A stretch of 64,000 nucleotides of DNA from Elioraea tepidiphila DSM 17972 (GTDB taxonomy: Bacteria; Pseudomonadota; Alphaproteobacteria; Acetobacterales; Acetobacteraceae): the NCBI RefSeq assembly GCF_000378465.1, contig NZ_KB899914.1:62001-126000 (forward strand), given 5' to 3'. Positions within the stretch are counted from its first letter, which is position 1; every line of letters starts with the position of its first letter. The position numbers and the translations under genes are program-made. Shown one piece after another: positions 38,018-41,138 of the stretch. Below the pieces are notes generated by a model. The model ran no database searches. It was not told where the DNA came from and saw only the letters and a list, made by a program, of their open reading frames with translations.

Positions 38018-38834
38018 GCGCGCCGAGCTGCCCCGACAGGCTCACACCCGGAGGCGGCAGCGACGGGGCCGCAGCGACCGCGCCCGCCAGGCCGGGAGGC
38101 GGGAACCGGTCCTGCATCACCTCGGCCTTGGAGAGCGAGGCCGACCCGTCGTAGTCGAAGCTCGCGATCAGCGCCCAGCCCACCGCCACGCCGCCGAGCG
38201 CGCCAGCCCCCAGCGCGGCCGCGAGTTCCTCCATCTCCGTGCCCTGGCTCAGCATCGTCGCATACGCGACTCCGCGCGCGAGTCGGGAGACCTCGGCCGC
38301 GGTCAGCGTGCCATCGCCACTGACATCCGCCCAGGCCCAGACCGCATCGATGCAGGCCGCGGCTTCGCCATGCGCGCAGGCCGCCTCGATCCCGTCGAGC
38401 GCGCCGAGGAACGACAGGCCCTCGCCGTGCAGCAGCGCGAGGGGCGTCGGGAGCGCTGGGCAGCGCCGGAACGACCGGGCCGGGGCATCGCCGGGCAGGT
38501 CGGCGTCGGCGAGCTTTTCGGGCGGTTCGCGCGTCTCAAGTCCCGTCGGCGTGGCCCGCAGCAGCAGCCGCGTATGCTCCTCGTCGTCGCCGACCGCGAG
38601 GGTGAACCCGTCACCGACCGTGCCGGTGCGCGTGATCCGCCACAGGCGCTGGGTGCCGCCCGTGGGCAGCATGGCCCAGCCGCGATGGGTGGCGAACAGC
38701 ATCGCCTCGGGTGCCGCGCATTCGCCCGAGACCCAGAGCCCCTGCATCGGCTCGGGCAAGGCGGCATTCTGGGCGCCCGCCGGCACCGCCCCCAGCAGCG
38801 CCGCAGCAAGCACGAGATGTCCCGGTCGCATCAT
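37965..38834 (-). CDS. secreted protein with two EF-hand loops
   Basis: 289-residue exported protein. A signal peptide (MMRPGHLVLAAALLGAVPAG, cleavage near AGAQ) precedes a beta-rich N domain (about 25-125), with Cys39 and Cys125 as a possible disulfide. Two canonical 12-residue EF-hand loops follow: 160-171 (DVSGDGTLTAAE) and 217-228 (DYDGSASLSKAE), each with acidic ligands at positions 1, 3 or 5, and 12. A periplasmic calcium-binding role is likely. GAGGGGAGGG precedes the double ATG. It is followed on the same strand by no gene, and its end overlaps wecB. The four-repeat protein lies just upstream in the same direction. Confidence 0.75.
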   Translation of the reverse strand: MMRPGHLVLAAALLGAVPAGAQNAALPEPMQGLWVSGECAAPEAMLFATHRGWAMLPTGGTQRLWRITRTGTVGDGFTLAVGDDEEHTRLLLRATPTGLETREPPEKLADADLPGDAPARSFRRCPALPTPLALLHGEGLSFLGALDGIEAACAHGEAAACIDAVWAWADVSGDGTLTAAEVSRLARGVAYATMLSQGTEMEELAAALGAGALGGVAVGWALIASFDYDGSASLSKAEVMQDRFPPPGLAGAVAAAPSLPPPGVSLSGQLGALKVLFEELAPLLGLPGH

Positions 38835-38845
38835 GGTCCCTCCCC

Positions 38846-40069
38846 TCACGGTGCCAGCGTGATCTCGCCGCCCGCACACAGATCGGCGCCGGCGAGGCGC
38901 GCCTCCTGCCCGTTGCGGAACCGGGCCGTCACGTCGTAGGCGCACACGCCCTCCTGCGGCGGCGCGAGCGCAAGCGACCGGCCGACGCCGAGGATCTGGT
39001 CGCCCAGCCGGTCCGGGCCGCGCCGGGTGCCCGGCGGGTCGACATGGAGCGCGATGATCGGGGCCGGCCCGGCATTGACGAACCGTACCGATCCGGCCGC
39101 CGGCGCATCGACCCAGCCCGCCTCGATGACGAGCTCGCTGATCCGGCAGAGGTCGATGCCGGATCGCTCGTCCGCCGGTCCCTGGTCGTAGTTCACGCGG
39201 ATCGTGAAGCTGCACCCCTGCGCCGGGTCGAGATCGACCTCGACCTGGTCGCCCTGCGACAGCATCCGCACGCCGAGCCGGTCCGGCCCTTCGTCCGGGG
39301 CACCATCCGGGAAGACATAGAGCGAGAACACCGTGCGGCCGGAGCGGTTGATCAGGGTCACGCGCGGCCCGGTCACGCGCGGCCCCGCCCCGGGGCCGAC
39401 CGACCCGGGCGTGAACGCGACGAGATCGTCCGCCACCGTCCAGCCCGGCGCGATGGTCAGGGGAGCGATCGCGCAGAGATCGACATTGCGCCGTTCCTCG
39501 GCGGCCTCGTTGTCGTACTCGACGCGGATGTCGTAGCTGCACCCCTGATCGGGCACCTGCGCGGTGAAGCGCGCGCCTGCCTCGAAAACCGCACTGCCGA
39601 GGCGGTCCTCGAGCCACTCGTTGCCGCCGGCGGGGCGGATGTAGAGATACATGATCGTGCGCGGCCCGGCATTGACGAGCTCGACATCCCGGTCCGGCGC
39701 CGCCGTCGGCCCGCTGCGCGCCGCGATGACCTCGCGCTCGCGGCAGATGTCCACACGCTCGCGGATGTCCTCGGCGCCATCGTCGAAGACGATGCGGATG
39801 TCGGCCGAGCAGCCGAACCCGGCCGGCAGGCGCACGACGAAGCTGCGCCCCGCCGGCACCATCTCGGCGCCGAGACGGTCCGGGCCCCAGTTGCGCGCGC
39901 CCGTGCCGCCGCGGGCGACGAACAGCTCGTAGACCGTGACATCGCCCTCGTTCTTGAGCGTGAAGCTCGGCGCGGGCTGCTGGCGCTGCCCCTGCGCCGC
40001 CGCCGGAGCGGCCCAGAGCGCAGCCGCGACCAGAAGGAGACCCGCGATGACAGGCCATCGACGTTGCAT
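38846..40069 (-). CDS. secreted protein of four tandem two-cysteine domains
   Basis: 407-residue exported protein: signal peptide (basic MQRRW, hydrophobic core, cleavage near APAAAQ) and then four homologous domains of about 90 residues. Each domain has a beta-strand start (LxNxG or LxNxS), a DRLG motif (residues 64, 155, 263 and 353), and a Cys pair. The pairs are 87/109, 177/199, 286/308 and 376/398, always 22 apart, so each domain probably holds one disulfide. Consensus blocks are GPDRLG, GCSxDIRV and DLC. ATG 40069 follows GGAGGAGAG. It is 11 bases upstream of the EF-hand gene on the same transcript. I do not recognise a named family. Confidence 0.82.
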   Translation of the reverse strand: MQRRWPVIAGLLLVAAALWAAPAAAQGQRQQPAPSFTLKNEGDVTVYELFVARGGTGARNWGPDRLGAEMVPAGRSFVVRLPAGFGCSADIRIVFDDGAEDIRERVDICREREVIAARSGPTAAPDRDVELVNAGPRTIMYLYIRPAGGNEWLEDRLGSAVFEAGARFTAQVPDQGCSYDIRVEYDNEAAEERRNVDLCAIAPLTIAPGWTVADDLVAFTPGSVGPGAGPRVTGPRVTLINRSGRTVFSLYVFPDGAPDEGPDRLGVRMLSQGDQVEVDLDPAQGCSFTIRVNYDQGPADERSGIDLCRISELVIEAGWVDAPAAGSVRFVNAGPAPIIALHVDPPGTRRGPDRLGDQILGVGRSLALAPPQEGVCAYDVTARFRNGQEARLAGADLCAGGEITLAP

Positions 40070-40235: not shown

Positions 40236-41138
40236 ATGGACAAGGCGTTGCGCGGCAAGTTCGGCAAGCTGCTCGCCCGCTATCGGGTGACCAAGGGCAA
40301 AGGCTTCCGCCTTGCCGACCACGACCCCGCCGATACGGCCGGGCTCGACTACAGCAAGGCCGAGGCGCGCGAACTGCTCGCGCGCGGTACCGCGCTGCTC
40401 GCCGAGGAACAGAGCAAGCTCTACGCCCAGGACCAGTGGTCGGTGCTGCTGCTGCTCCAGGCGATGGATGCGGCCGGCAAGGATGGCACGATCAAGCACG
40501 TGATGAGCGGCGTGAACCCGCAGGGCTGCGACGTGTTCAGCTTCAAGGCGCCGCATGCCGAGGAGCTGGATCACGACTTCCTGTGGCGGCACGTGCGCCG
40601 TCTGCCCGCACGCGGCCACATCGGCATCCACAACCGCTCCTGGTACGAGGAGGTTCTGGTCGTGCGCGTGCACAAGGAGATCCTCGCGCGCCAGAAGCTG
40701 CCCGACGCTGTGCGCGGCAAGCGCCTGTTCGACCGCCGGCTCGAGGACATCGCCGCGTTCGAGCGCTACCTCGCCAACCAGGGCACCGCGATCGTGAAGG
40801 TGTTCCTGCACATCTCGCGCAAGGAGCAGAAGAAGCGCTTCCTCGAACGGATCGACCACCCCGAGAAGAACTGGAAGTTCTCCTCGCGCGACGTCGCCGA
40901 ACGGGGGTACTGGGAGGACTACATGCAGGCCTACGAGACGGCGATCCGCGCGACCGCCGCCCCGCACGCGCCATGGTACGTGGTCCCGGCGGACAACAAG
41001 TGGTTCACCCGCCTGGTCGTCGCGGGTGCGCTGCTCGCCACGATGGGAAGCCTCGACCTCGCCTTCCCCACCCTGCCGGCGGAGGAGAAGGCGAAGCTCG
41101 CCGAGGCGCGCGCCAAGCTCGTCGCCGAGAAGGACTGA
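40236..41138 (+). CDS. ppk2: polyphosphate kinase 2 family protein
   Basis: 300-residue PPK2. These kinases use inorganic polyphosphate to phosphorylate nucleotides, or the reverse. Walker A AMDAAGKDGT lies at 76-85 with Lys82. GIHNRSWYEEVLVVRVH contains the lid/Walker-B-side residues, and WKFSSRDVAERGYWEDYMQAYE plus WYVVPADNKWFTRLVV are family hallmarks. The length fits the single-domain classes (I or III); class cannot be fixed by eye. ATG 40236 with GGGGAGAA upstream was chosen over an in-frame GTG at 40209. The stop touches the first of three intergenic hairpins. Confidence 0.93.
   Translation: MDKALRGKFGKLLARYRVTKGKGFRLADHDPADTAGLDYSKAEARELLARGTALLAEEQSKLYAQDQWSVLLLLQAMDAAGKDGTIKHVMSGVNPQGCDVFSFKAPHAEELDHDFLWRHVRRLPARGHIGIHNRSWYEEVLVVRVHKEILARQKLPDAVRGKRLFDRRLEDIAAFERYLANQGTAIVKVFLHISRKEQKKRFLERIDHPEKNWKFSSRDVAERGYWEDYMQAYETAIRATAAPHAPWYVVPADNKWFTRLVVAGALLATMGSLDLAFPTLPAEEKAKLAEARAKLVAEKD

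Follow-up and report, generated by a model that had tools for sequence, protein, structure and literature searches.

Organization of the locus

The window, i.e., the whole 64,000-nucleotide stretch of the Elioraea tepidiphila DSM 17972 genome that was analyzed, carries on its minus strand a gene for a predicted exported protein composed of four copies of one small domain, and a second gene for an EF-hand-like protein, referred to here as the partner. Their features are collected in Table 1.

Table 1. Features of the domain gene and the partner gene, in window coordinates
Feature	Position	Strand	Basis
Four-domain exported protein gene, 407 aa plus stop	38846..40069	(-)	Reading frame and dN/dS against Elioraea relatives
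Predicted signal peptide, residues 1-26, MQRRWPVIAGLLLVAAALWAAPAAAQ	39992..40069	(-)	Sequence pattern, read directly
Domain 1, residues 35-114, Cys87/Cys109	39728..39967	(-)	Profile match
Domain 2, residues 129-201, Cys177/Cys199	39467..39685	(-)	Profile match; structure predicted
Domain 3, residues 237-312, Cys286/Cys308	39134..39361	(-)	Profile match
Domain 4, residues 328-402, Cys376/Cys398	38864..39088	(-)	Profile match; C-terminal-domain clade in tree
Partner gene, exported EF-hand-like protein, 289 aa	37965..38834	(-)	Reading frame, homologue searches, alignment
Likely ribosome-binding site of the partner gene, GGGGAGG, in the 11-base gap	38839..38845	(-)	Sequence
Partner loop 1, DVSGDGTLTAAE, residues 170-181	38292..38327	(-)	Alignment
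Partner loop 2, DYDGSASLSKAE, residues 227-238	38121..38156	(-)	Alignment

Whole-protein identity of the four-domain protein to its Elioraea relatives was 89% and 72%. The differences fell mostly at the third codon position of the 407-residue frame, and dN/dS values were approximately 0.19 and 0.33, indicating that the gene is real and constrained; on these codon comparisons, it is under purifying selection. A promoter scan covering some promoter types, together with a terminator scan, returned no promoter and no terminator. Divergent from the domain gene lies a gene for a PPK2-like polyphosphate kinase (40236-41138, plus strand), an arrangement retained only by close relatives (L003 and L007).

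An earlier, sequence-only reading of this gene had described a signal peptide followed by four related domains, each with a DRLG motif and a pair of cysteines. Both sets of positions proved correct to the residue: the DRLG motifs lie at residues 64, 155, 263 and 353, and the protein contains exactly eight cysteines, forming four pairs that are each 22 residues apart. When eight cysteines were placed at random in the mature chain, none of 200,000 trials yielded four such pairs. The pattern of the N-terminus is of the export type, as had been proposed. The four domains, of approximately 75-80 residues apiece, are homologous: a profile seeded with them and then widened to related loci matched every copy at E 1e-23 to 1e-30, values that are partly circular given that the profile contains the four copies, and the same profile also finds copies in other genera.

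The partner gene starts 11 bases past the stop codon of the domain gene, as that reading had stated. Amongst 29 homologous partner sequences, the four cysteines and both loop motifs were kept, with D1, D3 and E12 of loop 2 present in all 29; in loop 1, E12 was likewise present in every sequence and D1 in 27. The protein resembles EF-hand proteins (PF13405, PF13499) in having two loops of 12 residues in which acidic positions, among them position 1, are conserved and position 12 is Glu, i.e., the pattern of an EF-hand loop. It differs from them, however, in falling below the Pfam cut-offs (13.8 bits vs 25 for EF-hand_6 and 14 vs 30 for EF-hand_7, the best EF-hand match having an E-value of 0.05), in possessing an extra N-terminal region of strands predicted at low confidence, and in the placement of its loops, the starts of which are 57 residues apart, a distance that exceeds the spacing of a usual EF-hand pair. 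Structure prediction from three close partner sequences was unreliable (pLDDT 47).

The gene pair in other genomes

A survey of genomes for conserved pairing, suggested in the sequence-only reading, gave a positive result. The partner protein was searched against 150 genomes and gave 24 matches, one of which was marginal (G069, E 5e-4). The other 23 genomes had a strong homologue, and in each of them the partner adjoined a domain protein of four or five copies. It lay directly downstream on the same strand in 22 of these, the matched region beginning approximately 0-114 bases after the stop codon; in the remaining genome (G104) the pair was split by a contig end. Seventeen neighborhoods of approximately 13-24 kb (11 kb for L004) were also compared, and only the domain gene and the partner, with their overlapping frames, were common to all. 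The upstream PPK2 neighbor and the WecB-like and peptidase neighbors were confined to close relatives, and no protease gene was conserved beside the pair in these neighborhoods.

The loci examined that encode one, two or three copies of the domain were without the partner. One genus (G125 and G292) forms an exception amongst the longer proteins, in that an unrelated gene comes next after its five-copy protein and no partner adjoins it; a search of the G125 genome with the partner sequence found no homologue anywhere.

A repeated exported domain with two invariant cysteines

Profile searches over the fetched loci yielded 264 distinct copies of the domain. Both cysteines were present in every one of these, and an early Asn in 263. 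The spacing of exactly 22 residues that had been described as strict is indeed exact in the window protein; family-wide, it is merely predominant, being found in 215 copies (81%), with spacings of 21 in 16, 23 in 31 and 24 in two. The sequence-only reading had also suggested one disulfide per domain. This is well supported, albeit indirectly, by the invariance of the cysteines and by their predicted positions flanking a β-hairpin (see below), and we consider that a single disulfide probably staples each copy.

The domain is widespread. Within the order, 118 of the 299 genomes contained a protein-level match, often at several loci per genome. In samples of 385 genomes for the class and 398 for the phylum, the domain profile matched 45 and 50, respectively, and the phylum matches included other classes. 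Family members thus occur both across Alphaproteobacteria and outside it. A few alphaproteobacterial plasmids carried matches, labelled as hypothetical proteins or unannotated, and no relative was found amongst the viral contigs and phages searched.

Three architectures were observed. Single-domain exported proteins of approximately 110-150 residues occur chiefly outside the taxonomic family; many of these (L036-L053) bear a tail resembling YNRxSGxTxAxxE C-terminal to the domain, which the tandem forms do not have. Tandem proteins contain two, three, four or five copies. Finally, at 22 fetched loci a trypsin-like peptidase (Trypsin_2, PF13365) is preceded by one or two copies on its N-terminal side, and these fused copies form a distinct sequence type in which DRLG is mostly lost. 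Some exported serine proteases of the same bacteria therefore bear the domain, whereas the window protein had no catalytic domain in a Pfam scan. The E. tepidiphila genome itself encodes three domain proteins: the four-copy protein of the window, a two-copy protein (contig C4) and a protease fusion on contig C11 (L125:2168-3514), which consists of a signal peptide, a degenerate copy that has retained its cysteine pair and lost DRLG, PG_binding_1 and Trypsin_2. Since the domain is found alone and fused to proteases as well as in the gene pair, it is not limited to the latter, and we regard it, from its sequence contexts, as a general and mobile accessory module of exported proteins.

Predicted fold and family relationships

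Scans of the window protein against Pfam, NCBIfam, PHROGs and PADLOC gave no significant family, and a sequence search of the PDB was empty or at chance level. The sequence-only reading had been unable to name the family, and this still stands: searches of Pfam, NCBIfam and PHROGs with 42 separate copies as repeat units gave nothing significant beyond isolated weak matches. The latter, such as Big_6 and GltG, were rejected because each appeared in a single copy of the 42; in the case of the bacterial Ig-like (Pfam Big) families, Big_6 reached E 0.0076 in its one copy and was absent for the window protein. A literature search, with most subscription journals outside its coverage, found no description of the domain or of the gene pair.

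A structural model was made for domain 2, aligned with ten other copies from the window and close relatives. It was all-β (pLDDT 83.8, pTM 0.75), with strands at model residues 3-10, 16-23, 44-50, 55-62, 67-74 and 81-83, and placed the two cysteines (model residues 54 and 76) at the open end of the hairpin formed by strands 55-62 and 67-74. One copy is thus predicted to be a β-sandwich with the cysteines flanking a single hairpin, and the near-constant spacing between them may reflect the fixed length of that hairpin, as judged from the strand positions in the model.

Comparison of this model with the PDB using Foldseek gave nothing at E<=0.001, the best match being 2mca (E 0.013). With VIA-align, the highest scores were obtained for the luminal domain of HGSNAT (Z 7.5 over 82 residues), 2mca, a protein of Eubacterium rectale (Z 6.7 over 85 residues), and VHL (Z 6.0-6.5 over approximately 76 residues); all lie below 8, within the chance range stated for the tool, and may reflect merely a common arrangement of strands. 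The HGSNAT luminal domain and 2mca align over nearly the whole domain, but share 7-8% identity and no known function with it. Homology to VHL, an idea prompted by the list of similar folds, found no significant support. The VHL β domain (PF01847) is likewise small, all-β and exported in bacteria, with an early Asn-rich strand end, and a local profile alignment to bacterial VHL sequences paired the conserved Asn and the Gly-containing turn that follows it. The fetched bacterial VHL sequences, however, have neither the Cys-x21-Cys hairpin pair nor DRLG; hhalign gave a non-significant E-value of 0.079 (probability 0.7%), in what is a weak test given that the VHL profile comprised four sequences; and the PF01847 profile did not match the window protein or any of the 42 copies at E<=1. 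A separate set of exported alphaproteobacterial proteins (L076-L079) scored above the Pfam cut-off for the VHL β domain and has conserved cysteines of its own. The domain is, accordingly, new to the libraries searched and of a familiar general kind, i.e., a small exported β-sandwich with one disulfide.

To relate the copies to one another, a tree of 103 copies was built on 85 alignment columns. Copies tended to cluster with those at the same position in other proteins rather than with their neighbors in the same chain. At a branch with 100/100 support, the last domains of the four- and five-copy proteins, 19 in number, were all on the same side; many of the other forks lacked resolution. The clustering by position indicates that divergence of the copies predates the separation of these genera, in keeping with roles specific to each position. 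In the five-copy protein L008 (G181), copies 3 and 4 appear to have arisen recently, by duplication of the penultimate domain within the protein.

Discussion

The explanation that we favor, while giving it somewhat less than an even chance, is that the gene pair encodes two exported proteins that cooperate in the envelope, one as a multi-site binding scaffold and the other as a calcium-responsive subunit. Four small β-sandwich domains, or five in some relatives, would be strung together to form the scaffold, each stapled by one disulfide made in the oxidizing periplasm. The partner, with its two EF-hand-like loops and four conserved cysteines, would be produced from the same transcript, bind calcium and dock on the scaffold. 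As the last-domain type is restricted to the long proteins, where it constitutes a clade of its own, the C-terminal domain is a candidate docking site. Wider use of the domain as an accessory module is shown by its fusion to trypsin-like proteases, in one case, in E. tepidiphila itself, together with a peptidoglycan-binding domain. We therefore propose, rather tentatively, that this uncatalogued exported domain of Pseudomonadota is a general binding module, deployed singly, in arrays or joined to trypsin-like proteases, and that its four- to five-copy form associates with an EF-hand-like partner, uncatalogued as well, in a dedicated complex controlled by calcium.

The same protease fusions, one of them encoded by the E. 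tepidiphila genome, could instead mean that the domain is a protease-associated module with a targeting, substrate-binding or inhibitory function, in which case the tandem protein would be a stand-alone regulator or decoy of exported trypsin-like proteases of the same cell, and the partner would add calcium control. We consider this unlikely, in that most copies sit in protease-free proteins, the pair has no conserved protease neighbor, and the fused copies are a type apart that has largely lost DRLG. The sequence-only reading had pictured a small envelope or matrix module. Its pairing of the two genes is borne out by their conservation, whereas the role assigned to them goes further than adjacency, which is not contact. 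A structural surface or matrix component of this sort, i.e., an adhesin-like or coat array cross-linked through calcium supplied by the partner, would suit the export-type N-terminus, the tandem β-sandwiches and the EF-hand-like loops; it seems improbable to us for a protein that has only four or five copies and, in a Pfam scan, no recognized surface anchor or secretion domain, and whose copies, being old and specific to their positions instead of uniform repeats, look more like distinct sites than like the units of a polymer.

Two further readings concern the domain itself. It could be a remote member of a known β-sandwich family (the VHL β domain, the HGSNAT luminal domain or a 2mca-like family) that has inherited a peptide- or sugar-related binding function, as the fold resemblances (Z 6.0-7.5 over 75-85 residues) and the paired Asn and turn of the VHL alignment might suggest. 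With Foldseek, hhalign and Pfam all short of significance and every Z-score below 8, such descent is quite doubtful. The invariance of the cysteines would also be expected if they were redox-active, in a sensor or in thiol exchange, rather than a structural staple. This appears very improbable: the pair is without a CxxC-type motif, and its spacing, set by the length of the hairpin and repeated in all copies and protein contexts, fits a staple.

A widespread exported domain that resembles an ordinary small β-sandwich and is nameless in the libraries searched is now defined. Its signature, suitable for a profile, comprises the invariant Asn and two cysteines together with W-G-x-D-R-L-G and D-L-C, and it links three kinds of hypothetical protein, namely exported proteins with one domain, those with tandem copies, and a set of trypsin-like proteases, in their N-terminal part.

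A minor observation concerns the genus that has the five-copy protein and no adjoining partner. At its locus L136 (G125), the gene that follows looks to be of the ketopantoate-reductase type, and the last domain of the five-copy protein lies on a long branch of the tree (0.72), as might be expected if constraint had relaxed once the partner was lost.
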